Below are positions 8,860 to 64,000 of a stretch of 64,000 nucleotides of DNA, in pieces. The notes under the pieces are model-generated. The model had not been told where the DNA came from. It saw nothing but the letters and a program-made list of their open reading frames with translations, and made no database searches. Position 1 is the first letter of the stretch. Each line of letters opens with the position of its first letter. Origin of the DNA: Ridgeia piscesae (lineage: Eukaryota; Annelida; Polychaeta; Sabellida; Siboglinidae); contig JAODUO010000627.1 in NCBI GenBank assembly GCA_025642075.2, positions 136,501 through 200,500 of the forward strand. Reading direction: 5' to 3'. The translations under genes were made by a program, and so were the position numbers.

Positions 8860-10218
8860 ATGCCTGGGGCAACGTCCGTGCCCGAGTATGGCATTCAGGA
8901 CATCTGGTGCTCCAACATGGAGCAGGAATTTAAGAAGATACGACACATTGTCCTCAAGTACCCATATGTCGCTATGGTACGTGGTTGAGGCTGATGCTCA
9001 TAGCTTTATGTAGAGACCCGTCCACCCGTCATTTGGACGGGTATAACTATAAGTGAATATGGACAAGTAGAAATATGGGTGGATGGGTAAAATAATAAAG
9101 GAGCAAAAAAGGTCTTCCAAAACAAATATTGTTAGTTATGCCTTGAAAGTGAGTGAAAATTATGTCACATGTGTGATTGTAGTCCATTTCAGGTCAACAT
9201 TTCAAAGTTAACATCCATGTGTCCACCAAAACATGTGTGACGTGACTGGCAATAATTTTATCCTGCATAAAGCCCTGCTGATGCTTGTGGAGTGTAAAAT
9301 GTGAGTTCACAACAAAACCTCCACAAATGATGCTCATAATTCAGAATGGACAAACCATTGTCAGACCAAACTATCACCTGAGAATTTTCCATCATTATCA
9401 TCAGTATGAGTCTTCAATATCACATTTTTTGGCCACTTCTGGAGTCAAATAACACAGTTTGATTTCCTGCCTAATATTATGTGTCATCTTTTGAGTTGTC
9501 CCCTACTATTCCCCTGTATTTTTATTTGCAAAATGTTAACGAAGACATGCTTTTGTCTTTTAATAATAATAATAATAAAATACTAGTGCCTGATAAAAAT
9601 TGCAATAAATAAAAAACGACATACTAAAAATAAATGTGTAAAATATACCTGAAATACAGTTTCTTAAACATTTTAAGTTTTTTTATAGATAGGAAAACAA
9701 ATTAAAATAAAAGTACTTTACATATATTTAAATGCAATCAAATGAAACACAAAGTCACATTTTTCACATTACTAGTTTCCTCAGAAAGTGGTGTTAAAGT
9801 GGGTAAATCTAGCTAAATCACCGACACCATGAACGGGTCCATCTTGGTCCATGCAACCGATCAAAACCTAGCTTCTATCTGCACTTTGGAAAAGTATTAG
9901 GTCATAAAGTCGTCTGCTGGTTCAGCTTCATAACAGAGAGCCAACCAGTTCGCTAAAAGTGCCTTACGTCGGTTTACAACGAAATCGTGACAGCAATATG
10001 CCACACTGTTCCTCATACGCTTGTAGCAATAGTTCAGTGAAAGACAGTATCAGTAAGCTGTCTTTTTGTAACCCTTTGAATCGACCAGAACTGAAACAGT
10101 AGTCCAGTTGATTCGTTGGGACAGTCACAGACACAGTGCGAATGCCAGACGACCTGGTTGGATTGACCCAACCATGAAAATGACCTCCACCACCCGCCAA
10201 ACAGCTTCTCACCTATCT

Positions 10219-10254
<36 letters not shown>

Positions 10255-13200
10255 CTACGTTATAAAATAAAATCACTTCCATTCCTCTAACAAAGAAAAT
10301 TCACGAAATAAATGCGCAGATCTTGACGGGAACTTCGTCGGCCGCTCTGCGGTACCGTAAAATCGCTATATAAGTTGTTTTACACAAAATGTTGTTAGAC
10401 AGCATGTTTGTGCGCGTGAATATTTATAAACTTTACTTACTGCATTCGCACGCGTGAAATAGTTTAATTACTTATAAATAATATAATGATAATTAATTAT
10501 TATCATTGCTATGATTTGCAGGAAATAATAAGTTTTATTATAACATAATGATATTTTATTTATATAGTGCCACATCCATAATTTTCTTAAAAATACAATA
10601 AGAAGAAAACTACCCACAGATAATATTTTAGAATAAATAATGAAAATAGATGTGTAATTAACGAAAGTGACCTATCAGTATTCAAAAGAACAAATACAAA
10701 TTCCATAACAACAATAGTGATAAATTTATGTAAAGGTAACTAAAATGGTAAAATAATTACAATGTAAGAATATTTTTCATTCAGCACATCCACACGCACA
10801 CACATTGTGCATAAGAAAATATTATTGAAGCTATTTTTTTCTACTTATGAATGATATTTTCACCACCAGATAAGTAATAATAAAGATTTTTGGACAAGAC
10901 ACTTTATTAATTATCGGGACAATAAATCACTGAAATTTAAACAAAATATGAATATATGGGAAATAATATTATATAGTGGTAGAAAAAGAAGGTTTTTGGT
11001 GCATTTAAAACTAATAATGTTATTGTTTTAGTTATTATTGTTAAAACATTGCTTATGTAATATAACATTGCATGCTCGCAGTACACTTTATATTTATAGA
11101 AACATTGATAAAATAAACAATGTGAGTTATGTGACATCATTGAACAACATGTAATTTCGATACCTCCAATTTTAGATAATTATGCAGACACATGTAATTT
11201 TAATATTTATTTTTAAATATTACCTGTGGGTAGCATTCTTCTTATTGCATATATTTTAATAACAGTATGTTGTGAAGCACCACAAACAATTGTGGATTTG
11301 GCGCTATATAAAATAAACTATTAAAATTATATATTTTTATATTAAATTGTTACTTTTTATCAACTCTATTAAACCCATTTCACCAAAGCGTTGTCTTTGT
11401 TTGCTGTTTAACATTTTCTGCAGATCATAGTGATGCTGCTAATTATTACAATATTATTTGTAATTAATTAAACTAATTGGCGCGTGCGAATGCAGTAAGG
11501 TTTATAAATATTCGCGTGCACAAACACGCCATCTAGCAGTATTTTTTGTAAAGCTAACTTATAATAGCGAGTTTATGGTAGTCGAAGTTGTCGAGTTGCC
11601 ATCCGTCGAGATTTGTGCGTTTCTTTTGTGAATTTTTTTCGTTAGAGGAATACAAGTGATTTTTTGTAATGTATTATATGTATGTAAGAAATGTGAGAAG
11701 TTTGGTGGCTGTTGGCGGTCGTTTTTGTGGTTAGGTCAGAAAGTAACAGCTAATAATACGCATGCACAGTTCACGCCGACCAAGAAGACTTAACTATGTC
11801 ATTTTGTTTCTAAAATGGCATAGTCTATAGACTTTCTATGGCTATGCATTCTAAATTTGTTCCTGGTAAACCACTGATGTTAAAAATATGATTGTTGTTG
11901 GAAGTTGTTACTTTTTATTAACTCTGTTAACCCCATATGATCAAAACATTGACTTTTGTTACCCTTTAATGGTATGCAATATTATGTATTTATAATTTAA
12001 TATATAAATTTACCATTTTTTTAGCAGTTATTGTAGTGTCTATGAATAAAAAATAGTTGTGTTCTTCAATGCTATAACTACAGCTACATTGATTACAGGA
12101 CACAGAGTTCCCCGGTGTCGTTGCACGGCCAATTGGAGAGTTTCGTAGTACGACAGACTTTCAGTACCAGCTACTGCGCTGTAACGTTGACCTGTTGAAG
12201 ATCATCCAGATTGGTTTCACTTTCTCTGATGAGAATGGTAAACTGGCCCGCCCTGTCTCCACATGGCAGTTCAACTTTCGCTTCAGTCTAGGGTAAGAAC
12301 ATGTATCATAATTATCACTTTGTCTAATATCTCAGATTAAGTTGACCCACAGTTAACATTCAAAATGAAATTTGTCCAAGTGAGAAATCAACAACAACAT
12401 GACTGCCCCAGGTATATAATAAAACCGGCTTATTATCGTTCAGAAAACTGTGGGAGTTGTTTGATTGTAATGTCACTTGGTGCTGTAGCACAGTGAGTAA
12501 AGCTTTGGACTTTCAACTGAGAGAACCCAGGTTCGAATCCTGCAGTTGGATGAGTTCACTCAGATGTATGAACAACTACCTGGCGATAGACAGTGGTGGA
12601 TATTTGTGTTTGAGTAGTCTTCACACATTAATTGCTGCCAGGCTCGATGTTTCCCAGGGAAGCTGAGACAGTATTCGATTGAACTTGTCTGCCAGGGAGT
12701 ATATTGTAAAGGGCTTTGATGAGTTATAATATCTAGATATGGCACTACATGTACCAGGTAAATAAGAAACGATTTTGCCAGCATCTTTCGAGAGACACTA
12801 ACAATTATTTGTACCACCTGTAACATGGTAACCCAAGCTATTATTAATATTATTTGTAAATCCTAGTTTATGATTACTGGACACTGTCACACTATTCAAA
12901 GAAGTCAACTTGGTATGTTTAGTTTAGCAGGGATTGCATTGTGGAGAATATGTTAGATGTCTCATTTTGCATGTGAGAGGATTCAGTATTTCTAGTAGTG
13001 AATACGTATGTTTCAGGAATGACATGTACGCACAAGATTCCATCAACATGCTTACAAAATGTGGAATTCAGTTTCATCGACATGAGGAAGATGGGATTGA
13101 AGTGAATGACTTCGCCGAGCTGCTGATGACTTCTGGGATCGTTCTCAGCGAAAACGTCAAGTGGATTTCATTCCATAGGTTAGCTTGGAGGTCTACAATT

Positions 13201-16200
13201 GGATGTTTGACTTATAAATATATTTTATTTTATCTTCCTTGTCACTAACTTGGCCGGGTTATTAAAAAATTTCCTTTAATGAAGTTGCAGTTAATTATGT
13301 TGTTGTGCTACACTGTGGTGTAGGGTCAAAGGTGCAATGACAACGAGGTGCTTTTGAGGTATCGGACAAAACATGTTTTTCTTTTGCATGATATGACTCA
13401 GCAATTATATACAACTGCATGAACTACTTGTCTACATATATTTATGTGAATTGTTAGTACTCCGGGTTTTATGCAGTATTTGTGGATTTATTGTCACTTA
13501 CTCCCTTTTGTCATTTATTATGTGCAATGACTGGACATTTTTGTTATAAAACACATAATGCCATTGAACATTTCACTTACTTCCTTTTGTCATTGTAAAA
13601 TTCAGTTCCATTGTCACTTGCACCTTTCTGCCTTGTCATTTCTAGCAAATCTACCAACTAAACATATGAATTGGTGGAACATGGTCCAGAATGTGTGACT
13701 GTGATGTTAACTCAATTTTGCAAAAAATATCCCTTGCACTCTTTTGCCACTGCATGGCAGTAGACTTCAGTTAATCTGTTTTAATTTAAGTCTGTTTTTT
13801 ATTTTATAATCTGTTAATTTTTTTTTTCTTTTTTCCGGACCAGTTTTGCTCAAAAAGTTCTTTCCTGAAAAAACCAGTTGTTGTGACATTTGCTATCTAA
13901 GATGACAATAATTAGACGTCCGATGAGTGATGGATGGTGTTAAATTTGCAGTGGTTATGACTTTGGCTACATGCTCAAGTTACTGACATGTGTGAGACTA
14001 CCTCCCGAGGAGCAGGACTTCTTTGAGCTCCTCAAGATCTTCTTCCCAAACATCTACGACGTCAAGTACCTCATGAAGAGTTGTAAGAACCTCAAGGGGG
14101 GACTACAGGAGGTCGCTGACCAGCTGGAGGTCAGTGCCACTCCCAAGAGGTCACAGAGTAACCTCGATTAGTGGCAGCATTTTATTACGCCACCAGTTCG
14201 GGCAACCAGGAAAAATAATTTTAAATGAAAACCTTATATTGGAAAAATATGCTTAGAGTAAAGTTAACAATTTTGACAGAAACATCAGGCACCAGTTAAG
14301 AATTTATATGACAGGTTAAAACTATTTAAATCAGAAAAATTTATAAATTACTTGTATGTTATAGAAAAATAGTAAGTTGTCATTTGCTCTTACAAACTGT
14401 GACGGACACTGTTACAACTGTGCATATGTTTTGGTAGCGTGGTCCGTAAGTTCAATGCAGCAAGTACATTATAACAAGAAGGAGCAGACTAGCAGGTTTA
14501 TACTGAATGGTCTGAGTGCATCAACCACTGTTTTGATTCAGATAAAGCGAGTGGGTCCCCAACACCAGGCCGGCAGTGACAGTCTACTCACAGGCTGCAC
14601 TTTCTTCAAGATGAGAGAGGTGAGTCACGTAGGTGCTCTCAGTGAGGTGAGTCACGTAGATGTTCTCAGTGAGGTGAGTCACGTAGATGCTCTCAGTGAG
14701 GTGAGTCACGTAGATGTTCTCAGTGAGGTGAGTCACGTAGATGCTCTCAGTGGGGTGAATCACGTAGATGTTCTCAGTGAGGTGAGTCACGTAGATGCTC
14801 TCAGTGAGGTGAGTCACGTAGATGCTCTCAGTGAGGTGAGTCACGTAGATGCTCTCAGTGGGGTGAGTCACGTAGATGCTCTCAGTGAGGTGAGTCACGT
14901 AGATGCTCTCAGTGGGGTGAGTCACGTAGATGCTCTCAGTGGGGTGAGTCACGTAGGTGCTCTCAGTGAGGTGAGTCACGTAGGTGCTCTCAGTGAGGTG
15001 AGTCACGTAGGTGCTCTCAGTGAGGTGAGTCACGTAGGTGCTCTCAGTGAGGTGAGTCACGTAGATGCTCTCAGTGAGGTGAGTCACGTAGATGCTCTCA
15101 GTGAGGTGAGTCACGTAGGTGCTCTCAGTGAGGTGAGTCACGTAGATGCTCTCAGTGAGGTGAGTCACGTAGATGCTCTCAGTGAGGTGAGTCACGTAGA
15201 TGCTCTCAGTGAGGTGAGTCACGTAGATGCTCTCAGTGGGTGAGTCACGTAGATGCTCTCAGTGAGGGTCCGAGTACTCTAGATGTAGTCAGTGGCAGTG
15301 GGTGAGTACGTAGATGTTCTCAGTGAGGTGAGTCACGTAGGTGCTCTCAGTGGGGTGAGTCACGTAGATGCTCTCAGTGGGGTGAGTCACGTAGATGCTC
15401 TCAGTGGGGTGAGTCACGTAGGTGCTCTCAGTGAGGTGAGTCACGATGCTCATGAGGTGAGTCAATGCTTCAGTGAGGTGAGTCACGTAGATGCTCTCAG
15501 TGGGGTGAGTCACGTAGATGTTCTCAGTGGGGTGAGTCACGTAGATGCTCTCAGTGAGGTGAGTCACGTAGATGCTCTCAGTGAGGTGAGTCACGTAGAT
15601 GCTCTCAGTGGGGTGAGTCACGTAGATGTTCTCAGTGGGGTGAGTCACGTAGATGTTCTCAGTGAGGTGAGTCACGTAGGTGCTCTCAGTGAGGTGAGTC
15701 ACGTAGATGCTCTCAGTGAGGTGAGTCACGTAGATGCTCTCAGTGGGGTGAGTCACGTAGATGTTCTCAGTGGGGTGAGTCACGTAGATGCTCTCAGTGA
15801 GGTGAGTCACGTAGATGCTCTCAGTGGGGTGAGTCACGTAGATGCTCTCAGTGGGGTGAGTCACGTAGATGTTCTCAGTGAGGTGAGTCACGTAGGTGCT
15901 CTCAGTGAGGTGAGTCACATAGGTGCTCTCAGTGAGGTGAGTCACATAGATGCTCTCAGTGAGGTGAGTCACGTAGATGCTCTCAGTGAGGTGAGTCACA
16001 TAGATGCTCTCAGTGGGGTGAGTCACGTAGATGTTCTCAGTGGGGTGAGTCACGTAGATGTTCTCAGTGAGGTGAGTCACGTAGGTGCTCTCAGTGAGGT
16101 GAGTCACGTAGATGTTCTCAGTGAGGTGAGTCACGTAGGTGCTCTCAGTGAGGTGAGTCACATAGATGCTCTCAGTGGGGTGAGTCACGTAGATGCTCTC

Positions 16201-16835
16201 AGTGGGGTGAGTCACGTAGATGCTCTCAGTGGGGTGAGTCACGTAGATGCTCTCAATCAGGGGTGCTAAAGTATTGCAAACACAGTCTAACCCTTATTAT
16301 GGTCACGTTGATAATACAGACACCTCGCAATTAGGGTCACCCATGGGACATTAATTTCTGTAAGTATAGCAAATGGTTCTTGCTAATGTGGTCACCTCAT
16401 TATTAAGGTCAGCAGTCCAGTACTGAGCATGATAATGAACTTCCGCTGTACATGCGTTTTGCGACACAGCAATTTCAGAATGAAAGGCATCTCGTATCAA
16501 CGTTTCAATGGTAAATTCTTAACTTGAAAAGTCGTAGAAATGTTGACATATGGAATGTTATTGTTGCTGGACCAGATGAACCCTGACTCAGATGCTTCCT
16601 TCTGCAGATGTTCTTTGAGGACAACATTGATGACAACAAGTACTGTGGACACTTGTACGGCCTCGGGGTGCCATTCACACAGAACGGCAACAGCACCGCG
16701 CCAGCCAGCAACAGCAGCAGTAACACCAGCAGCACGACGACAACAACAACCAACTACGACAACCACGCTTACCCAGGGACAATCAACTCCCACGCAACGA
16801 ATAACGGCGATGTGACAACTGTCACCTCTAGTTGA
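8860..16835 (+). CDS. CNOT7: CCR4-NOT deadenylase subunit CNOT7/8 (CAF1/POP2), complete
   Basis: Catalytic 3'-5' poly(A) exonuclease of the CCR4-NOT complex. Six coding exons: 8860-8976, 12099-12292, 13017-13178, 13952-14129, 14542-14619 and 16608-16835 (stop included). All borders are GT-AG and phases match, giving 318 residues. The DEDD nuclease residues fall at the human positions: D40 and E42 in DTEFPG, D161 in SGYDFGY, H225 and D230 in GPQHQAGSDSLLTG. The conserved MYAQDS, VKYLMKSCKNLKGGL and KYCGHLYGLG blocks are present. The C-terminal tail after YGLG is Asn/Ser/Thr-rich and longer than in vertebrates (285-292 residues). The start is ATG 8860 in an exon whose acceptor is at 8825. CNOT7 and CNOT8 are vertebrate paralogues, so this is the co-orthologue. 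Intron 1 contains a MITE and a foldback element, intron 2 a SINE, and intron 5 starts directly as a minisatellite. Confidence 0.97.
8999..9277 (+). mobile_element. hAT-like MITE, copy B (CNOT7 intron 1)
   Basis: A 279-bp copy of the same family, beginning CATAGCTTTATG and ending CATAAAGCCCTG, with perfect 8-bp target duplications CTGATGCT at 8991-8998 and 9278-9285. The insertion is only 14 nt after the exon 1 splice donor of CNOT7 (8976/8977). Confidence 0.9.
10164..11738. mobile_element. foldback-type element with long inverted arms (CNOT7 intron 1)
   Basis: The left end (TGACCCAACCATGAAAATG) and the reverse complement of the right end (TGACCTAACCACAAAAACG) align. The similarity continues inward over several hundred bases: CTTCTCAC, CTTACATACATATA, TTCCTCTAAC, GAATATTTATAAAC, CTGCATTCGCACGCG and CTACCCACAG occur in the same order in both arms. 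The result is an imperfect palindrome of about 1.57 kb with arms of roughly 475-570 bp. No transposase ORF is present. Target duplications were not identified. Confidence 0.8.
10225..10254. repeat. (TA)n microsatellite
   Basis: About 14 TA dinucleotides, inside the left arm of the foldback element; the right arm has only a short equivalent. Confidence 0.9.
12478..12770 (+). mobile_element. tRNA-derived SINE (CNOT7 intron 2)
   Basis: A tRNA-like head with an A-box-like TAGCACAGTGAG (12486-12497) and a perfect B box GGTTCGAATCC (12530-12540), followed by an unrelated body. The spacing is that of an RNA polymerase III promoter. The tail boundary is uncertain. It is not an intact tRNA gene because no complete cloverleaf with acceptor stem is apparent. 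Confidence 0.65.
14620..16257 (+). repeat. 27-bp minisatellite made of repeated splice-donor units (CNOT7 intron 5)
   Basis: The array begins at the first base of CNOT7 intron 5. The exon ends AGAGAG at 14619 and the unit reads GTGAGTCACGTAG, then A/G TGCT, then CTCAGTGAG, after which GTGAGT starts again. About 60 units follow, with two brief irregular patches near 15231-15300 and 15440-15475. Almost every unit recreates a G(A/G)G|GTGAGT donor and a TGAGTCA AP-1 consensus. The unit length is a multiple of three and contains no stop in the CNOT7 frame, so the frame stays open until a 1-bp deletion near 15238. Confidence 0.97.
16284..16420. mobile_element. possible DNA-transposon end remnant
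   Basis: A stretch starting CAGTCTAACCCTTATTATGG followed by repeated GGTCAC motifs resembles the subterminal region of pogo/Tigger-like elements. The partner terminus was not located, so this is tentative. Confidence 0.3.
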
Positions 16836-18074: not shown

Positions 18075-18734
18075 CTATTTCTTCCACGTTGTTCCGTCTG
18101 TCACTCCCAGCATGATGTTATAATGCAGAGGACTATTAAAGTCCTTCTCCACCAGTAGGTACGGCCGTCCCCTGATCACAAAGTTGCCTCCCATCAACCC
18201 CATTCCCATATTCGAGGCTTTTTTTGACTGCACATCCTTCGATGTGAACACGATCTTAACCTTCGACAGTCGCCAGTTGTAGTAAAACCCAGTAAACGTC
18301 TTATTTGTGTCATTGTAGTAGATGGCCACCATGATCCGGCTAAGCAATGTGTACATCGCAGCGAGAATTCCACCTCCCAACGTCGCGATAAACGTTGCTT
18401 GGAGCAGCGGTGAGTCAAGGTCACTGAACATGACTGCTACTTCCGATTTGTAAACAGCGAAGTTCCACGCTGCATTGGCAGCCGCAGGGATAACAGTGAA
18501 GGCGCTCAGCATGTACGTCCAGTACATGGTCCGCTCCATGTTGCTGCGATATATGAGCAAGTTGTCGCTGGTGGGTTGGGCAGGTTTACGGGGTTTCGTC
18601 GATAAACATGCCACCTGGGTGATGACGGGCAACGCTTGGGCTGTTGGTTGTAATCGTTGAAACCTTGGATGGTTTTGGTTATTCCTGGTGTTGATGGCCC
18701 AAGTTGACACGCATCGTACCTTGGTGCAGAGCAT
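18075..18734 (-). CDS. TMEM223-like mitochondrial inner-membrane protein
   Basis: Single-exon coding region of 219 residues. The N-terminal ~50 residues are basic and hydroxylated with few acids, as in a mitochondrial presequence. A DNLLIYRSNMERTM block at residues 58-71 is followed by two membrane segments (about 71-90 and 109-140). A C-terminal domain ends in VIRGRPYLLVEKDF and LGVTDGTTW. This order and the R-G-R...K motif fit the TMEM70/TMEM186/TMEM223 family, best TMEM223, a complex IV assembly factor. ATG 18734 is chosen because it directly follows a good acceptor (CATTTCAG), implying a 5' UTR intron; the frame is also open 29 codons further upstream. TMEM186 is the alternative. Confidence 0.65.
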   Translation of the reverse strand: MLCTKVRCVSTWAINTRNNQNHPRFQRLQPTAQALPVITQVACLSTKPRKPAQPTSDNLLIYRSNMERTMYWTYMLSAFTVIPAAANAAWNFAVYKSEVAVMFSDLDSPLLQATFIATLGGGILAAMYTLLSRIMVAIYYNDTNKTFTGFYYNWRLSKVKIVFTSKDVQSKKASNMGMGLMGGNFVIRGRPYLLVEKDFNSPLHYNIMLGVTDGTTWKK

Positions 18735-18994
18735 CTGAAATGGAGATGTGACAGAATTGTTAGTTTCATAAATATAATATCCAGTGCAATATTTATTACA
18801 CAGCTGGTTTTGCAAAATCAATATTGTTAACTGGTAAGATTATTCAATAATTTAGCCAATGCTTTTTACATTTAAATGCCGTGTTAGTTTACATAAACCA
18901 CACAACATGTCACAGTTGACATTAGGTTCAATTTATCGGCAAGAAATGAATACTGAACTGAGAAGAGATACAACCCCAAACACACAGTCAGATG

Positions 18995-22682: not shown

Positions 22683-24823
22683 ATAATAAATAATAATAAA
22701 ATACAATATTTATATAGCGCCATAATCACACGGTGCTTTATGGCGCTTTACAGTACAATAATAATAATAATAAATCTACAGAGAAATTAAAACATTACAA
22801 TATTCAGTTAAATAATTTAAAAGCTAAACAACAAATAGTCATAAATTGAATTAAACAGTAAAAATATAATTATATATAATGATAATAAAACTAAAAGGTA
22901 TAGGTGCAATAAATAATAAAATAATATATTACATAAGAACTATCAAAATAAACAAATATATGTATACTTAGGTGGGATTAAAACTAGTAAGATTGCGGAT
23001 AAAATGTACATTCATGGCATTAAAATAAATGAACAAGTAGGAATAAATATCGTGTGCTATTAAAACGGTTGATATGTCGATTTGGTATCTATGTATTGCT
23101 GCTGGAACAGAAATGTGTTTAGTTGCCTTTGAAATTTGATGCAGCTATCACTATTTCTGATGTTAACAGGCAAACTGTTCCATAGAGTCGCCGCTGCTTT
23201 CGTAAAAGTTCTGTCAACATACGTTATAGTTCGCGTTCGTGGCACGGTCAACAGGATGGTTGACTCGATCTGACCGTAAAGAGCGTCGGCGATTGGTGGT
23301 GTATCGCACGATAGGTGTGTGACAAGATCTTATATTTGGCGGTGGACTGGAAGCCAGTGAAGTTCTTTCAGAACAGGAGTGATCTGGGAGCGGCGACCAG
23401 TTCTTGTGATGACACGCCCGCAAGCATTCTGAAGACGTTGCATCTTCGCAAGATGATTCTCTGGTAAACCGTACAGTAGCGAATTACTGTAATCTAATCT
23501 TGAGGTTACCAAGGCATGTACAAGTGTCTTTGTTGCATCCAGGGTGAGATACCGTCGGATTCTCCCAATATTCCTCAGGTGGTAGTATCCTGTTCGACAT
23601 ACCGAATGTATACGCTGACTCATATTCAGGTGTTGATCGTAGATAACCCCAAGATCACGGACGGAAGATGATTGTAGTTGTTGTTGTTCCCCGACGGTAT
23701 AATGGTAATGTTAGAAAGTGATTTAAGTCCGTGCTTGGATGTGAACAAGTACACTTCCGTTTTCTCGTCATTCAACTTGAGCATTTCTCGTCAGCCAAGT
23801 ACGAACGTCTCTGATGCAATCATTCAACCGGGTAACTGCTGCTATGCGTTCTTCATGGTCACTATTCATGAAAGAGACGTGTGTCAGCGGCATAAAAGTG
23901 CACGTCTAATTTATGATGCCTTATAATGTTTCCGAGTGGTCGTGTGTAAAGTGAGTAAAGTTTTGGGTCGAGCACCGATCCCCGTGGAACGCCATATCCC
24001 AGTGTTACACCAGCCGAAGCATTTTCACCAATGATGACTTGTTGGCATCGCTGGCACAAATACGATGCCATCCATAACAGTGCATCGCCAGAAATGCCAT
24101 GTGTTTCTTTCAATCTCTCGAGGAGGATGGCGTGATCTATCGTGTCGAATGCTGCTGACAAATCTAACAAAACAAGCGCTGCAACACGTCCACTCTCCAG
24201 TGCCTGGACGATGTCATGTTGTATCTTGATTAAAGCTTTTTCGGTTGAGTGTTGTTTTCTGTAGGCAGACTGCAAACGGTCGTGGAGATTGTTTTCTAGC
24301 AGATGTTGCTCGATTCGAGTATTAACAACTTTCTCCATTATCTTCGAGATGAATGGCAGGTTTGACACTGGTCGGTAGTTGCTTAGTAACTCTGGATCAA
24401 GAGATGGTTTCTTCAGGCGAGGTTTAATGTGGGCATGCTTAAGCTCTGCAGGCACTTGGGATGTTTCAAAAGATCTATTCACAATAGCCACTATTAATGG
24501 TGCTAGTTCATGAGCACATGATTTCAGTAGCCAAGTTGGAATGGGGTCCAGTTTGCAAGACTTATCAGGCGAAGATTTTATGATGCCTATGATTTCTTCA
24601 TTTGTCATCTGGACAAAGGTATCTAGTCACTTGAACGCCATCATCTGATGGTGTCGTAAGATACGAGGTATCGTCAGGACACAGAGGGTCGCGGATCATC
24701 GACACTTTTGCAGTGAAAAAGTCTGAAAAGTCACTGGCGAGTTGAGCATCTGACGTGTGCATAGGCAATGGGCATCCTTTGATGTTTCCCATCAAGGTGT
24801 TTACCGTTCGAAACACCGCCTTA
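22683..24823 (-). mobile_element. CR1/L2-like LINE, 3' half (reverse transcriptase and tail)
   Basis: Minus-strand reverse transcriptase in several shifted frames. The main block at 23862-24608 carries NYRPVSNLPFISKIMEKVV, the motif A segment DLSAAFDTIDHA and the motif B segment GVPRGSVLDP. Motif C is FYAADT, where the usual YADD has lost its first catalytic aspartate. C-terminal blocks follow at 23330-23623 (SRLDYSNSLLYGLPE, LKELHWLPVHRQI) and 23060-23251 (TLWNSLPVNIRNSDS). The 3' end is a GGCGCTATATAAATATT motif plus a TTATTATT-rich tail near 22683. The 5' half continues at 27942-29421 beyond the inserted transposon. Confidence 0.9.
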
Positions 24824-34873: not shown

Positions 34874-42887
<8,014 letters not shown>

Positions 42888-45639: not shown

Positions 45640-47392
45640 CGTGACTGGGATGGACCAGGAGTTTGACAGTCAGACTGGGATGGACCATAAGTTGGACAAT
45701 TAGATTGGGAAGGACCATGAGCTGGGCAGTTAAATTGAGATGGACCATGAGTTAGACTGGGATGGACCAAGAGTTTGACAGTTAGATTGGAATAAACCAT
45801 GAATTGGACAGTTAGACTGGGAAGGACCAGGAGTTTGATTGTTGGATTTTGATGGACCATGAGTTGAACAATTAGTTAGATTGGGATGAACCATGAGTTG
45901 GACAGTTAGACTGGGATGGACCATGAGTCGGACAATTAGATTGGGAAGGACCATGAGCTGGGCAGTTAAATTGAGATGGACCATGAGTTGGACAGTTAGA
46001 CTGGGATGAACCATGAGTTGGACAATGAGATTGGGATGGACCATGAGTTGGACAATTAGATTGGGATGAACCATGAGTTGGACACTTAGATTGAGATGGA
46101 CCATGAGTTGGACAATTAGATTGGGATGGACCAGGAGTTGGACAGTTAGATTGGGATGAACCATGAGTTGGACAGTTAGACTGGGATGGACCATGAGTCG
46201 GACAATTAGATTGGGAAGGACCATGAGCTGGGCAGTTAAATTGAGATGGACCATGAGTTGGACAGTTAGACTGGGATGAACCATGAGTTGGACAATGAGA
46301 TTGGGATGGACCATGAGTTGGACAATTAGATTGGGAAGGACCATGAGCTGGGCAGTTAAATTGAGATGGACCATGAGTTGGACAGTTAGACTGGGATGGA
46401 CCAAGAGTTTGACAGTTAGATTGGAATAAACCATGAATTGGACAGTTAGACTGGGAAGGACCAGGAGTTTGATTGTTAGATTTTGATGGACCATGAGTTG
46501 AACAATTAGATTGGGATGGACCAGGAGTTGGACAGTTAGACTGGGATGAACCATGAGTTGGACACTTAGATTGAGATGGACCATGAGTTGGACAATTAGA
46601 TTGGGATGGACCAGGAGTTGGACAGTTAGATTGGGATGAACCATGAGTTGGACAGTTAGACTGGGATGGACCATGAGTTGGACAATTAGATTGGGAAGGA
46701 CCATGAGCTGGGCAGTTAAATTGAGATGGACCATGAGTTGGACAGTTAGACTGGGATGAACCATGAGTTGGACAATGAGATTGGGATGGACCATGAGTTG
46801 GACAATTAGATTGGGAAGGACCATGAGCTGGGCAGTTAAATTGAGATGGACCATGAGTTGGACAGTTAGACTGGGATGAACCATGAGTTGGACAATGAGA
46901 TTGGGATGGACCAGGAGTTGGAGAGTTAGACTGGGGTGGACCATGAGTTGGACAGTTAGATTGGAATGGACCATGAGTTGGACAGTTAGACTGGGATGGA
47001 CCATGAGTTGGACAATTATATTGGAATGGACCATGAGTTGGACAGTTAGACTGGGATGAACCATGAGTTGGACAGTTAGACTGGGATGGACCAGGAGTTT
47101 GACATTTAGATTTAGATGGACCATGAGTTGGACAGTTAGATTGAGATGGACCATAAATTGCACAGTTAGACTGGGATGGACCAGGAGTTGGACAATTAGA
47201 TTTGGATGGACCATGAGTTGGACAGTTAGACTGGGATGGACCAGGAGTTAGACAATTAGATTTGGATGGACCACGAGTTGGACAGTTATATTGAGATGGA
47301 CCATGAGTTGCACAGTTAGATTGGGACGGACCAGGAGTTGGACAGTTAGATTGGAATGGACCATGGGTTGGGCAGTTAGACGGGGCTGTGAT
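45640..47392. repeat. 30-bp minisatellite with higher-order organisation
   Basis: About 58 copies of a 30-bp unit of the form CCATGAGTTG + GACAGTTAGA + CTGGGATGGA. Distinct monomer types (for example GACAATTAGATTGGGAAGGA, GGCAGTTAAATTGAGATGGA, GACAATGAGATTGGGATGGA) recur in a fixed order, giving a roughly 120-bp higher-order unit around 45930, 46200, 46680 and 46800. Long minus-strand frames through it (HGPSQSNCPT-type) are artefacts of a unit length divisible by three. Confidence 0.95.
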
Positions 47393-47399
47393 AAATATA

Positions 47400-47985
<586 letters not shown>

Positions 47986-56397: not shown

Positions 56398-57985
56398 TTC
56401 ATGACATCAGTGGACTAACTGACACTGACACATCAGGGGACTAACTGACACTGACACATCAGGGGACTAACTGACACTGACACATCATGGGACTAACTGA
56501 CACCGACACGTCAGGGGACACATTAGGGGACTAACTGACACTGACACCTGGGATTAACTGACACTGACACATCAGGGGACTAACTGACACTGACACCTGG
56601 GATTAACTGACACTGACACATCAGGGGACTAACTGACACTGACACCTGGGATTAACTGACACTGACACATCAGGGGACTAACTGACACTGACACCTGGGA
56701 TTAACTGACACCGACACGTCAGGGGACTAACTGACACCGATACATTAACAACTAACTGACACTGACACATCAGGGGACTAACTGACGCTGACACATCAGG
56801 GGACTAACTGACGCTGACACATCAGGGGACTAACTGACACTGACACATCAGTGGACTAACTGATGCTGACACATCAGTGGACTAACTGACGCTGACACAC
56901 CAGGGGACTGACACTGACACATCAGGGGACTAACTGACACTGACACATCAGGGGAAACTAACTGACACTGACACATCAGGGGACCAACTGACACTGACAC
57001 ATCAGGGGACTAACTGACACTGTCACCTGGGATTAACTGACACCGACACATCAGGGGACTAACTGACACTGACACTGACACCTGGGATTAACTGACACCG
57101 ACACGTCAGGGGACTAACTGACACCGATACATTAGGGGACTAACTGACACTGACACATCAGGGGACTAACTGACGCTGACACATCAGGGGACTAACTGAC
57201 AGCTGACACATCAGTGGGACTAACTGACACTGACACATCAGGGGACTAACTGATGCTGACACATCAGGGGACTAACTGACACTGACACATCAGGGGACTA
57301 ACTGACGCTGACACATCAGGGGACTAACTGACGCTGACACATCAGGGGACTAACTGACACTGACACATCAGGGGACTAACTGACACTGACACACCAGGGG
57401 ACTAACTGACGCTGACACATCAGGGGACTAACTGACACTGACACATCAGGGGACTAACTGACACTGACACATCAGGGGACTAACTGACACTGACACATCA
57501 GGGGACTAACTGACGCTGACACACCAGGGGACTAACTGACACACCAGGGGACTGACACTGACACATCAGGGGACTAACTGACACTGACACATCAGGGGAC
57601 TAACTGACGCTGACACATCAGGGGACTAACTGACGCTGACACATCAGGGGACTAACTGACACTGACACATCAGGGGACTAACTGACACTGACACATCAGG
57701 GGACTAACTGACGCTGACACACCAGGGGACTAACTGACACTGACACATCAGGGGACTAACTGACACTGACACATCAGGGGACTAACTGACGCTGACACAT
57801 CAGGGGACTAACTGACACTGACACATCAGGGGACTAACTGACACGACACATCAGGGGACTAACTGACACCGACACATCAGGGGACTAACTGACACCGACA
57901 CATCAGGGGACTAACTGACACCGACACGTCAGGGGACTAACTGACACCGACACGTCAGGGGACTAACTGCACACGTCAGGGGACT
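56398..57985. repeat. 26-bp minisatellite, about 61 copies
   Basis: The unit reads GGGGACTAAC + TGACACTGAC + ACATCA, with variants CTGACGCTGAC, CACCGACACG and a shortened CACCTGGGATTAAC form enriched at the left end and around 57030-57100. It lies immediately upstream of the MCMDC2 start region. Confidence 0.95.
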
Positions 57986-58259
57986 AACTGACACTGAATT
58001 AACATGGCAAGCCACTGTATGGTTAATGTTTCAGACTTTACCGGAAATGGCAGTTGCAGAATTTAAATTTGATATCACTATATGGTGATATACAATACGA
58101 AACTACACATTTGCAATTTCCTGTAAGCTACAGCTGGAGACAACCAGCCGACAGCTCACACCAATTGAACATTTTACAGGTTTACATGTTCACACACTTA
58201 TCAAATTTCCAGAGTTGTACCCTTGAACGAGAAACACAAACAGCCAGTTCTGTCGAGAG

Positions 58260-60877
58260 ATGAATGAAGAAGATCGTTTGGAACTACTGAAAGTGGCACT
58301 GGAATATATTGACCAGACGGGCACCTTCTTCACAATCCAAGAAATGTGCCGACAGTACCAATGTCAACAACTGCAGGTTACAATAACCTTTCCAGTTGTA
58401 CCCTCGGCCACTCCCTGTACCCTCGGCCACTCCCCATACACTTGGCCACTCCCCATACCCATGGCCACTCCCCGTACCCTCGGCCACTCCCCGTACCCTC
58501 GGCCACTCCCCCTACCCTCGGCCACTCCCCTACCCTTGGCCACTCCCCATACCCTCACCCACCCCCCTACCATCGGCCACTCCCCGTACCCTCGGCCACA
58601 CCCCATACCCTCAGCCACTCCCCGTACCCTCGGCCTCCCCCTGTACCCTTGGCCACTCCCTGTACCCTCGGCCACTCCCTATACCCTCGGCCACTCCCCG
58701 TACCCTCAGCCACTCCCCGTACCCTCGGCCACTCCCCGTACCCTCGGCCATTCCCCGTACCCTCGGCCACTCCCCGTACCCTCGGCCATTCACCGTACCC
58801 TCGGCCACTCCCCGTACCCTTGGCCACCCCCCATACCATCGGCCACTCCCCGTATCCTTGGCCACACCCCATACCCTCAGCCACTCCCCGTACCCTCGGC
58901 CACTCCCTGTACCCTCGGCCTCCCCCTGTACCCTCGGCCACTCCCTGTACCCTCGGCCACTCCCTGTACCCTTGGCCATTCCCTGTACCCTAGGCCACTC
59001 CCTGTACCCTCGGCCACTCCCTGTACCCTAGGCCACTCACTGTACCCTCGGCCACTCCCTGTACCCTAGGCCACTCCCTGTACCCTAGGCCATTCCCTGT
59101 ACCCTCGGCCACTCCCTGTACCTGTAGTAATAATTGTATTACTCAGCTGGAAATGGCTGAGTCATTTTCTGTTATGATAACAGTAATTTATTTGTGTATT
59201 TCAGCAATTTTGTGTGATTGCATATCTAGTTGAAGAGCAATTATCTAAGTCATTTCACCACTAGCTGTTCACAATTTGGATACATCTATGTATCTAAGTA
59301 AGTTAGCAGGCTGCACATCTACTACATGTATTAGGAATGTTGTGTTTAAGGTGATGTCAAGATTTCTTTGTCTTGCAGGATAGAGTATTTTATTTCAAGG
59401 TTCCTATTGAACCAGTGGATTTGCTAGATCTTGATGGTATGTAATTTCCTCCGCTGTTTGTTTATGTGATCACACACTTATACACCAGTACATATGCATG
59501 CCTAGATAGTAGATGAAGTGTGTAATATCCCATATAGTATGTTGGACTAATTAAGAACTGCTCCCAGTAAAGGGTAAAGTGTAATACATGTGGAGGTGGC
59601 TATTTGTTACCCCTCGACCTACAAATGCATGTAAAATGCCTGATGTCAATCTTGTCAAAAGTACCTTCAATCTAACTGAATCTAATCACGTATAATCTAA
59701 CTTATCCCTAAACCTAATACTAACCCTAAAACTAACCCTAAACTAATAATAATAATAAGTAATAAATAATAACACTAAAACTAACCCTAAACTAATAATA
59801 ATTGATATATAACAGTATCTTGTCTATGCCATATCTCAACCAATAAAACCATTCAAATTCACATTACACTTTACAGAAATATAGGCATTACCTTAAAGTT
59901 AAAAAATAGAGATGTAGTTGTAAAATAAATTGACCAATATAAATTGTTCAGTATAAATACATAATATTACCTGGTACACTTAATAATGCTAAAATACTCA
60001 TACTGATAAGAGTTAATTATATTACACATTAAGTATAAATAAATAATAAAATAGCTGATAAATAGCAGTGAAAATGTTTATTTGCAAGTGGTGTCAGTAA
60101 TGACTAAGTTTAATAACATCATAGCTTTATGTAGAGACCCGTTCACCCATCATTTGGACGGGTAAACAAGAATATGGACTAGTAGAAATATGGGTGGACT
60201 GTTAAAAAAATGAAGGACCAAAAAAAGGTCTTCCAAAACCATAGATATTGTTAGTTATCCCTTGAAAGTGAGTGAAAATGGTGTCACATGTGTGTTTGTA
60301 GTCCATTTCAGGTCATCAGACACATTTAAAAGTTTGTAAACTGGCTTAACAGTTAACATCCATGTGTCCACCAATTTAACATGTGACTGGCAATAATTTT
60401 ATCATGCATAAAGCCCTGAATAACATGTACATAACCTACCGGTAGATATTTTATATCATTTTAAATGCTATGTCCAAATTTGCCTTCATGGTAGGCAGAA
60501 ATCAAACCAACAACTACTAGTAAGTGTGTAACAATGTAGACATGTACATGTTATACAGTGTAGAACTTTACATTAAGATAAGTATGCACTATTAAGTAGG
60601 TCAATAATTTAGTTTATAATTGCATATACCCTGTGTTATATAAGAGATTTATTATTGCATCATCTCGTTTTCAAATAAGAATCGGGCAAAATGCAGACAT
60701 TGCATCAACATACGTTCACAAAAATCTGCTCTATGATTTATAAAAAAGTCAGTCAATTAGCTGTGTAATTTGCTGGTGTCATGTTCATTTAACTTTATGT
60801 ATTCTGTTCCTTATCTAGCTGTCCTTGGTAATTTGGTTTTGAATCGGCCGACAGCGGCAAGCAAGGTCTTTCAGGAG
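58260..60877 (+). CDS. MCMDC2: MCMDC2, first three coding exons (3' partial)
   Basis: MCM-domain-containing protein 2, a meiotic homologous-recombination factor related to MCM helicases. Exons: 58260-58376 (MNEEDRLELLKVALEYIDQT...), 59379-59436 (DRVFYFKVPIEPVDLLDL) and 60819-60877 (VLGNLVLNRPTASKVFQE). The borders are GT-AG with phases 0, 1, 0. The sequence parallels human MCMDC2: EAALIYLDRSGG, YRFKILINPSDVVELD, LGNHILHQPLKAAEVFQ. The MCM core would lie beyond 64000. Intron 1 begins with an 18-bp minisatellite 20 nt after the donor; intron 2 carries a hAT-like MITE. A TTTCAG at 58028-58033 may be a 5' UTR acceptor. Confidence 0.8.
58396..59122. repeat. 18-bp minisatellite, about 40 copies (MCMDC2 intron 1)
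   Basis: The unit is CCGTACCCTCGGCCACTC or CTGTACCCTCGGCCACTC, starting about 20 nt downstream of the exon 1 donor. The unit length is divisible by three, so all plus frames and several minus frames are open over 200 codons. It is a repeat artefact, but the MCMDC2 frame also reads through the donor into the array. Confidence 0.95.
60120..60418 (+). mobile_element. hAT-like MITE, copy D (MCMDC2 intron 2)
   Basis: A 299-bp element beginning CATAGCTTTATG and ending CATAAAGCCCTG, with perfect 8-bp target duplications AATAACAT at 60112-60119 and 60419-60426. Confidence 0.9.
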
Positions 60878-61484: not shown

Positions 61485-64000
61485 AACATGAACTTTACTA
61501 CAACATGAACTTGGCCACAGTGTGAACTTGGCAACAGTGTGAACTTGGCCACAGCGTGAACTTGGCCACAGTGTGAACTTTGTCACTGTGTGAACTTGGC
61601 CACACTGTGAACTTGGCCACTGTGTGAACTTGGCCACTGTGTGAACTTGGCCACTGTGTGAACTTGGCCACAGTGTGAACTTGGCAACAGTGTGAACTTG
61701 GCCACAGCGTGAACTTGGCCACTGTGTGAACTTGGCCACAGTGTGAACTTGGCAACAGTGTGAACTTGGCCACTGTGTGAACTTGGCCACAGTGTGAACT
61801 TGGCCACAGCGTGAACTTGGCCACAGTGTGAACTTGGCCACAGTGTGAACTTGGCAACAGTGTGAACTTGGCCACTGTGTGAACTTGGCCACAGTGTGAA
61901 CTTGGCAACAGTGTGAACTTGGCCACAGTGTGAACTTGGCCACAGTGTGAACTTGGCCACAGTGTGAACTTGGCAACAGTGTGAACTTGGCCACTGTGTG
62001 AACTTGGCCACAGTGTGAACTTGGCAACAGTGTGAACTTGGCCACAGTGTGAACTTGGCCACAGTGTGAACTTGGCCACAGCGTGAACTTGGCCACTGTG
62101 TGAACTTGGCCACAGTGTGAACTTGGCCACTGTGTGAACTTGGCCACAGTGTGAACTTGGCAACAGCGTGAACTTGGCCACTGTGTGAACTTGGCCACAG
62201 CGTGAACTTGGCCACTGTGTGAACTTGGCCACTGTGTGAACTTGGCAACAGTGTGAACTTGGCAACAGTGTGAACTTGGCCACAGCGTGAACTTGGCCAC
62301 TGTGTGAACTTGGCCACAGTGTGAACTTGGCCACAGTGTGAACTTGGCCACAGCGTGAACTTGGCCACTGTGTGAACTTGGCCACAGTGTGAACTTGGCA
62401 ACAGTGTGAACTTGGCCACAGCGTGAACTTGGCCACTGTGTGAACTTGGCCACAGTGTGAACTTGGCCACTGTGTGAACTTGGCAACTGTGTGAACTTGG
62501 CCACAGTATGAACTTGGCCACTGTGTGAACTTGGCAACTGTGTGAACTTGGCAACAGTGTGAACTTGGCCACAGTATGAACTTGGCCACAGTGTGAACTT
62601 GGCCACAGTGTGAACTTGGCCACTGTGTGAACTTGGCAACTGTGTGAACTTGGCAACAGTGTGAACTTGGCAACAGTGTGAACTTGGCCACTGTGTGAAC
62701 TTGGCCACTGTGTGAACTTGGCCACAGTGTGAACTTGGCAACAGTGTGAACTTGGCCACAGTGTGAACTTGGCCACAGTGTGAACTTGGCCACTGTGTGA
62801 ACTTGGCAACTGTGTGAACTTGGCAACAGTGTGAACTTGGCAACAGTGTGAACTTGGCAACAGTGTGAACTTGGCCACTGTGTGAACTTGGCCACAGTGT
62901 GAACTTGGCAACAGTGTGAACTTGGCCACTGTGTGAACTTGGCAACAGTGTGAACTTGGCAACAGTGTGAACTTGGCAACAGTGTGAACTTGGCAACAGT
63001 GTGAACTTGGCAACAGTGTGAACTTGGCAACAGTGTGAACTTGGCCACTGTGTGAACTTGGCCACTGTGTGAACTTGGCAACAGTGTGAACTTGGCAACA
63101 GTGTGAACTTGGCAACAGTGTGAACTTGGCCACTGTGTGAACTTGGCCACAGTGTGAACTTGGCAACAGTGTGAACTTGGCCACAGTGTGAACTTGGCCA
63201 CAGTGTGAACTTGGCAACAGTGTGAACTTGGCAACAGTGTGAACTTGGCAACAGTGTGAACTTGGCCACAGTGTGAACTTGGCCACTGTGTGAACTTGGC
63301 AACAGTGTGAACTTGGCAACAGTGTGAACTTGGCAACAGTGTGAACTTGGCCACAGTGTGAACTTGGCCACTGTGTGAACTTGGCAACAGTGTGAACTTG
63401 GCAACAGTGTGAACTTGGCCACAGTGTGAACTTGGCCACAGTGTGAACTTGGCCACAGTATGAACTTGGCCACTGTGTGAACTTGGCCACTGTGTGAACT
63501 TGGCAACAGTGTGAACTTGGCCACAGCGTGAACTTGGCCACAGTATGAACTTGGCAACAGTGTGAACTTGGCCACAGTGTGAACTTGGCCACTGTGTGAA
63601 CTTGGCAACAGTGTGAACTTGGCCACAGCGTGAACTTGGCCACAGTATGAACTTGGCCACTGTGTGAACTTGGCCACTGTGTGAACTTGGCAACAGTGTG
63701 AACTTGGCAACAGTGTGAACTTGGCCACAGTATGAACTTGGCCACAGTATGAACTTGGCCACTGTGTGAACTTGGCCACAGCGTGAACTTGGCCACAGTG
63801 TGAACTTGGCCACTGTGTGAACTTGGCCACTGTGTGAACTTGGCCACTGTGTGAACTTGGCCACTGTGTGAACTTGGCAACAGTGTGAACTTGGCCACTG
63901 TGTGAACTTGGCCACAGTGTGAACTTTGTCACTGTGTGAACTTGGCCACAGTGTGAACTTGGCCACTGTGTGAACTTGGCAACAGTGTGAACTTTGTCAC
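61485..64000. repeat. 17-bp minisatellite, about 148 copies, running off the window
   Basis: The unit reads GTGAACTTGGCCACAGT, with recurrent variants at few positions: CCACAG, CAACAG, CCACTG, CAACTG, plus GCGTG and GTATG forms. The minus strand has no stop in any frame because the 17-mer has none in any of its three phases. The three overlapping ~800-codon frames are therefore artefacts. Confidence 0.97.

Follow-up and report, generated by a model that had tools for sequence, protein, structure and literature searches.

A tandem array of splice donors opening intron 5 of CNOT7 in Ridgeia piscesae: a probable donor-seeded minisatellite of a known kind

The stretch of DNA analysed here, called the window throughout, comprises 64,000 nucleotides of Ridgeia piscesae, an annelid tubeworm of deep-sea vents (assembly GCA_025642075.2, contig JAODUO010000627.1, positions 136,501 to 200,500 of the forward strand) and carries on its plus strand the gene CNOT7, whose fifth intron opens with a minisatellite built of repeated 5' splice donors. 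The exons were located by tblastn with human CNOT7, and the six of them, when joined, encode a protein of 318 amino acids (P0001) identical over its full length (100%) to 'hypothetical protein NP493_629g01031 [Ridgeia piscesae]'; after this protein, the next matches among the best 120 of 6,035 share 65-77% identity. The initial annotation of this DNA, which named CNOT7 as the host gene and placed the end of the exon at 14619, agrees with the joined gene. The CAF1 domain PF04857 was assigned to P0001 and spans the whole protein, and the match to human CNOT7 (4gmj_B) has an E value of 1.6e-133. D40, E42, D161, H225 and D230, which we take to be the catalytic residues of the CNOT7/CAF1 deadenylase, are all invariant in an alignment of 23 sequences out of 243 fetched proteins. 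A structure model of P0001 made with 23 sequences was poor (mean predicted local distance difference test score, pLDDT, of 42), with residue 243 in a low-confidence helix 235-248, and was not used. The exons, and the features of the array found with Tandem Repeats Finder (TRF), by splitting the array into units and by reading its frame, are as follows.

8860..8976, plus strand: CNOT7 coding exon 1 (tblastn with human CNOT7; joined gene)
12099..12292, plus strand: CNOT7 coding exon 2 (tblastn; joined gene)
13017..13178, plus strand: CNOT7 coding exon 3 (tblastn; joined gene)
13952..14129, plus strand: CNOT7 coding exon 4 (tblastn; joined gene)
14542..14619, plus strand: CNOT7 coding exon 5, 78 nt, ending MRE, phase 0 (tblastn; joined gene)
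14620..16257, plus strand: tandem array, 60 units, consensus GTGAGTCACGTAGATGCTCTCAGTGAG, 59 GTGAGT donors (TRF; unit split)
14620..14625, plus strand: native 5' splice site GTGAGT, in array unit 1 (unit split; joined gene)
14620..15239, plus strand: units 1-23, open in the frame of exon 5 (unit split; frame reading)
15241..15243, plus strand: TGA, first in-frame stop for read-through from exon 5 (frame reading)
15267..15301, plus strand: degenerate stretch interrupting the array (unit split)
16234..16266, plus strand: final unit and adjoining unique flank, VSHVDALNQGC, compared below with the tails of P0121 and P0122
16258..16607, plus strand: rest of intron 5, unique sequence that includes the 3' splice site (TTCTGCAG) (joined gene)
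16608..16835, plus strand: CNOT7 last coding exon, holding the stop codon (tblastn; joined gene)

The array makes up 82% of intron 5 (14620-16607, 1,988 nt, phase 0), and the native donor of exon 5 is itself the first array unit, the exon ending at 14619 and unit 1 starting at 14620. TRF calls the array at 14617-16255, with a period of 27, 60.9 copies and 93% matches. Splitting from 14620 gives 60 units, 54 of them exactly 27 nt long; units 30 and 31 are each 21 nt long and unit 23 is 26 nt long. GTGAGT is kept in 59 of the 60 units, the exception being unit 6 (14755) with GTGAAT, which bears out the initial description of about 60 tandem units running from the exact border with a donor in nearly every one. 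When the 54 full units are aligned, 22 of the 27 columns are invariant, and the five varying ones show transitions only. The window contains 63 copies of the heptamer GGTGAGT, of which 59 are inside the array; the mean over 100 shuffles was 8.86 (standard deviation 2.58, largest value 17).

Copy number and unit order are taken here as given by the assembly sequence. Arrays of near-identical 27-mers are difficult to assemble, and the 2023 Ridgeia genome paper describes the published assembly as Illumina-based, with a contig N50 of 10.42 kb. It might thus be asked whether the copy number, the order or even the existence of the array is largely an assembly product. However, there is no N in the 64,000 bases, which fits poorly with that assembly and would point to a long-read source; several units have private changes or lengths; and the full-length units, 54 in all, contain no repeated word of four unit variants, unlike copied blocks. 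We consider an artefact of this kind very unlikely. Duplication of blocks within the array itself was also examined and rejected, adjacent identical variants numbering 12 versus 9.3 (P = 0.20). Nor did folding reveal any special RNA structure in eight consensus units, which gave -80.7 kcal/mol compared with -77.2 kcal/mol (standard deviation 19.3) for arrays of shuffled units, 116 of 300 of which were as low or lower.

Another motif enriched in the array is TGAGTCA, an AP-1 site, found 58 times between 14621 and 16241 and 71 times in the window as a whole, compared with 12.67 in shuffles. Such an excess could mean that the array acts at the DNA level as a cluster of sites for bZIP proteins of the AP-1 type. 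The motif is nevertheless spelled whenever the donor is followed by CA, and is thus a by-product of GTGAGTCA; no independent sign of enhancer function was found in the array, and we find this explanation hardly credible.

The position of the array relative to the exon suggests that it grew from the exon 5 donor border, and this view is moderately supported. Uninterrupted matching with period 27 begins at 14617, three bases within exon 5, and by a rough, post hoc estimate the chance that an array of this length, placed at random in the intron, would begin no more than about 3 nt from the donor is about 1%. The last 8 bases of the exon match the last 8 bases of the unit at 6 positions, which is a weak similarity. 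Stronger indications come from two short open reading frames (ORFs) retrieved by a query made of exon 5 plus array, P0121 (85 amino acids, on a contig of 64,300 bases) and P0122 (81 amino acids, on a contig of 1,296,228 bases). Each shares 25 of 26 exon 5 residues with Ridgeia, making them the top two among 232 others, and the word TGCTFF in exon 5 is confined to Ridgeia, P0121 and P0122 (3 of 243 fetched proteins). Past the donor border their tails read VGHMVALNSEHC in P0121 and VGHMYAFKQGW in P0122, that is, one unit-like copy followed by non-repeat sequence. When 24 read-through tails were compared with the last Ridgeia unit and its flank, P0121 and P0122 ranked first and second (scores 19 and 15; the next 9). 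That near relatives carry one copy of the unit and that the expansion took place in the Ridgeia lineage is moderately supported by these comparisons, not proven, and the proposal of the initial annotation that the border was the seed of the expansion gains moderate support from the same single copies, with mixed controls that are considered below. A scan of genome contigs with P0122 also found CNOT7 relatives in two entries titled as Synechococcus and Euryarchaeota metagenome-assembled genomes (L001 and L002), which probably hold eukaryotic contamination, taken here to be from a protist, and a scan of viral contigs with 37 nt of the array gave no matches.

The initial annotation knew of no described donor-seeded minisatellite of such a size, a claim refuted by the variable number tandem repeat (VNTR) in intron 18 of human ABCA7. 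Its 25-bp unit starts with two bases that are the GT of the exon 18 donor, and its length is polymorphic, from 298 to 10,678 bp or about 12 to 427 units; in RNA, length leaves an isoform that retains one unit unaffected and strongly increases the skipping of exon 19 (PMC5954066). Three traits of the ABCA7 type are present in CNOT7: an intronic minisatellite with a unit of tens of base pairs (27 versus 25) right behind the exon, a first unit opened by the native donor GT, and repetition of the donor in later units. The ABCA7 array is of similar or larger size, so that, as far as these accounts go, the kind of array is already known and the CNOT7 case is not the largest. The two differ in that effects of the ABCA7 array are documented in RNA, whereas those of the CNOT7 array would be predictions, and in that the exon after intron 5 of CNOT7 carries the stop codon, so that control by length through its skipping is no direct option there. 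A real difference is the keeping of the frame, since 25 bp shifts it and 27 bp does not.

The number of repeats in human F7 is 5-8, and the primary paper is that of Borensztajn et al. 2006. In F7 intron 7 several 37-bp tandem repeats of high homology follow one another, the first of them containing the donor; splicing normally takes the most upstream donor and no other, and oriented scanning has been reported as the way of this choice (PMC6627357). The likeness to CNOT7 is that the donor sits in the first tandem repeat; in contrast, the repeats of F7 are few, their unit is not a multiple of three, and use of the first donor is for CNOT7 only inferred. In human CBS a 31-bp VNTR of 16-21 units is named c.1444_1467+7(16_21) (PMC2630376). 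Its unit also spans an exon-intron border, whereby the donor is repeated, but by its name it has 24 exonic and 7 intronic bases, whereas the CNOT7 repeat takes in a few exon bases at most and is otherwise intronic. A minisatellite is also known from an interferon-induced transcript, said to have a 12-bp unit and to belong to gene 6-16/IFI6. For that transcript the idea is already present in the title of Turri et al. 1995, and a study in C. elegans linked intronic minisatellites more loosely with alternative splicing.

The donors of the CNOT7 array differ little in their predicted strength. The three bases ahead of the donor GT are GAG in 38 units, GGG in 20 and TGG in 2 (n = 60), and the duplex with the 5' end of U1 has an energy of -10.8 kcal/mol for GAG donors and -10.4 kcal/mol for GGG donors. 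The donors had been called equally strong at first, which is not quite so. The four other donors of CNOT7 form weaker U1 duplexes, from -5.5 to -8.9 kcal/mol. Selection on the donors was considered and found unsupported: one of 6 columns varies in the donor hexamer and 4 of 21 elsewhere in the unit, so that the hexamer is conserved no better than the rest, as would fit a lack of selection for donors. That the array could buffer donor choice, titrate U1 or control splicing by its length, as the initial annotation suggested, is conjecture. With 60 strong U1 sites within 1.6 kb, the array might be imagined as a reservoir for the U1 small nuclear ribonucleoprotein, as a means of its titration, or as a shield against early cleavage and polyadenylation. 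Nascent copies of one gene are, however, few compared with cellular U1, as is generally known, and titration follows from the donor sequence itself, with no independent support. Moreover, the donors of the array are mostly paired in a local fold model, where the first donor (0.0007) is not clearly freer than the others (mean 0.0005), the values for the four other CNOT7 donors being 0.0014-0.039. A role of this type appears extremely unlikely.

The frame of exon 5 remains open through unit 23, and the TGA at 15241-15243 comes into it because that unit has 26 nt. Register with the exon is kept by 58 donors out of 60, the exceptions being the frame-shifting donors 24 and 25. Stops precede the 35 in-register donors 26-60, which leaves donors 1-23 for stop-free use. 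The initial statement that the donors are in phase is thus right as to register, but only these 23 are usable without an in-frame stop. Splicing from donors 2-23 would insert nonapeptides of the VSHVDALSE type, and one could envisage a lineage-specific, frame-preserving ladder of CNOT7 isoforms with 0 to 22 such inserts after residue 243, near the catalytic core, set by donor choice, array length or splicing factors. The near-identical U1 pairing of these 23 donors, stronger than that of the gene's four other donors, would favour it. On the other hand, the frame was open in 69% of 20,000 shuffled units that retained GTGAGT, hence openness is no mark of selection, and the insertion point lies inside a run conserved across the 23 aligned homologues, where nonapeptide inserts would probably impair the enzyme. 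No words of the array were found in 144 fetched proteins (the best 120 of 6,035 plus 24 from the search with exon 5 plus array, best E value 1.7e-3), a weak negative, and transcripts of this worm may be missing from the database. F7, as described, uses its first donor only, and by analogy the ABCA7 and F7 precedents would speak against use of many donors. We give such a ladder very little credence. Alternatively, the intron might be retained, or polyadenylated within; the frame open through unit 23 would then yield a CNOT7 truncated behind residue 243, to which a tail of 23 nonapeptide units ending at 15241-15243 is attached. A human CNOT7 isoform of 244 amino acids is said to end at this point, but a literature search returned no paper with 'CNOT7v2', and no protein of the predicted kind (about 450 amino acids, within the length limits of the search) is among the best 120 of 6,035 matches; a product of this sort is highly improbable.

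We consider it probable that the array is an intronic minisatellite seeded by the donor, of the same kind as in ABCA7 and F7, which grew near-neutrally and is spliced mainly from its first donor. As suggested by the units and by the two probable relatives, the exon 5 donor together with some 20 nt from the start of intron 5 would have been duplicated in tandem, and slippage or unequal exchange would have raised the copies to about 60 units. The array would be barred from the exon by selection on the coding sequence, hence its stop at the border. Splicing would occur chiefly from the donor adjacent to the exon, by analogy with F7 and ABCA7, and the annotated Ridgeia protein, which corresponds to first-donor splicing, is consistent with that. 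The same precedents predict that one or a few of the donors that follow are used now and then; as the unit has 27 nt and the frame is open to unit 23, such events would insert residues in blocks of 9 with no frameshift, and CNOT7 output would probably be little affected. In favour of this explanation we also count the density of minisatellites in the window, where the seven long arrays counted, taken from 38 TRF rows after shorter arrays and overlapping rows had been set aside, cover 9,503 of 64,000 bases (14.8%).

Several points weigh against a donor-seeded array spliced from its first donor. Shuffled gapped alignments of the tails gave P = 0.10 for P0121 and 0.04 for P0122; against the first array units P0121 scores 12, the same as P0146, and P0122 scores 6; and the apparently unrelated tail P0150 ties with P0121 in the nucleotide ceiling (21/30, with 23 for P0122). 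The ends of intron 4 add nothing clear: P0122 has the highest local score among 97 (20, followed by 18) and a negative ungapped score, P0121 is not among the ten rows listed, and the comparison was not used. The relatives were compared at the amino-acid level only, and searches favour tails that resemble the query. As for splicing, the protein annotation may derive from homology and not from RNA (the 2023 genome paper combined homology, ab initio and RNA-seq evidence for gene prediction), and downstream donors resemble the first one in U1 pairing, so that its preferential use rests on the mammalian analogy.

A donor-seeded array in CNOT7 would extend the ABCA7 and F7 pattern to an invertebrate and to a core gene of mRNA decay. 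Near-identical donors at steps of 27 nt, 23 of them in frame, form a natural ruler for the choice of 5' splice sites: counts of junctions per donor would separate scanning from the exon, nearness to the 3' site and near-random choice, and for the first 23 donors such counts would be free of confounding by frameshift and decay.

The six other long arrays of the window, all called by TRF, are listed below.

1-751: tandem array, period 18
45646-47380: tandem array, period 30
47406-47975: tandem array, period 4
56404-57997: tandem array, period 26
58398-59122: tandem array, period 19
61506-63994: tandem array, period 17, about 146 copies

Within these six arrays GT(A/G)AGT is absent from the plus strand and occurs once on the minus strand, at 58398-59122. 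The latter array begins 21 nt past a possible donor, CTGCAG|GTTACA (GT at 58377), which would end the open frame MNEEDRLELLKVALEYIDQTGTFFTIQEMCRQYQCQQLQ (region 58261-59122), and perhaps represents a second array hugging a donor; the candidate exon with MNEEDRLELLKVALEYIDQTGTFFTIQEMCRQYQCQQLQ had no Pfam match and a PDB match only at E 0.94, and is unconfirmed. The 17-bp array leaves minus-strand frames open up to 832 codons (61498-63996). Other minus-strand features include, downstream of CNOT7, an ORF at 18078-18839 matching the TMEM70/TMEM186/TMEM223 family (E 3.3e-6), and a reverse transcriptase ORF at 23865-24626 (RVT_1, E 3e-20), probably a piece of a non-LTR (long terminal repeat) retrotransposon. 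On the same strand, a Beta-lactamase match at 40673-41038 (E 2.4e-20) and a DUF3471 match just under the cut-off at 34877-35404 are perhaps pieces of one serine-hydrolase-like gene at 34877-41038.

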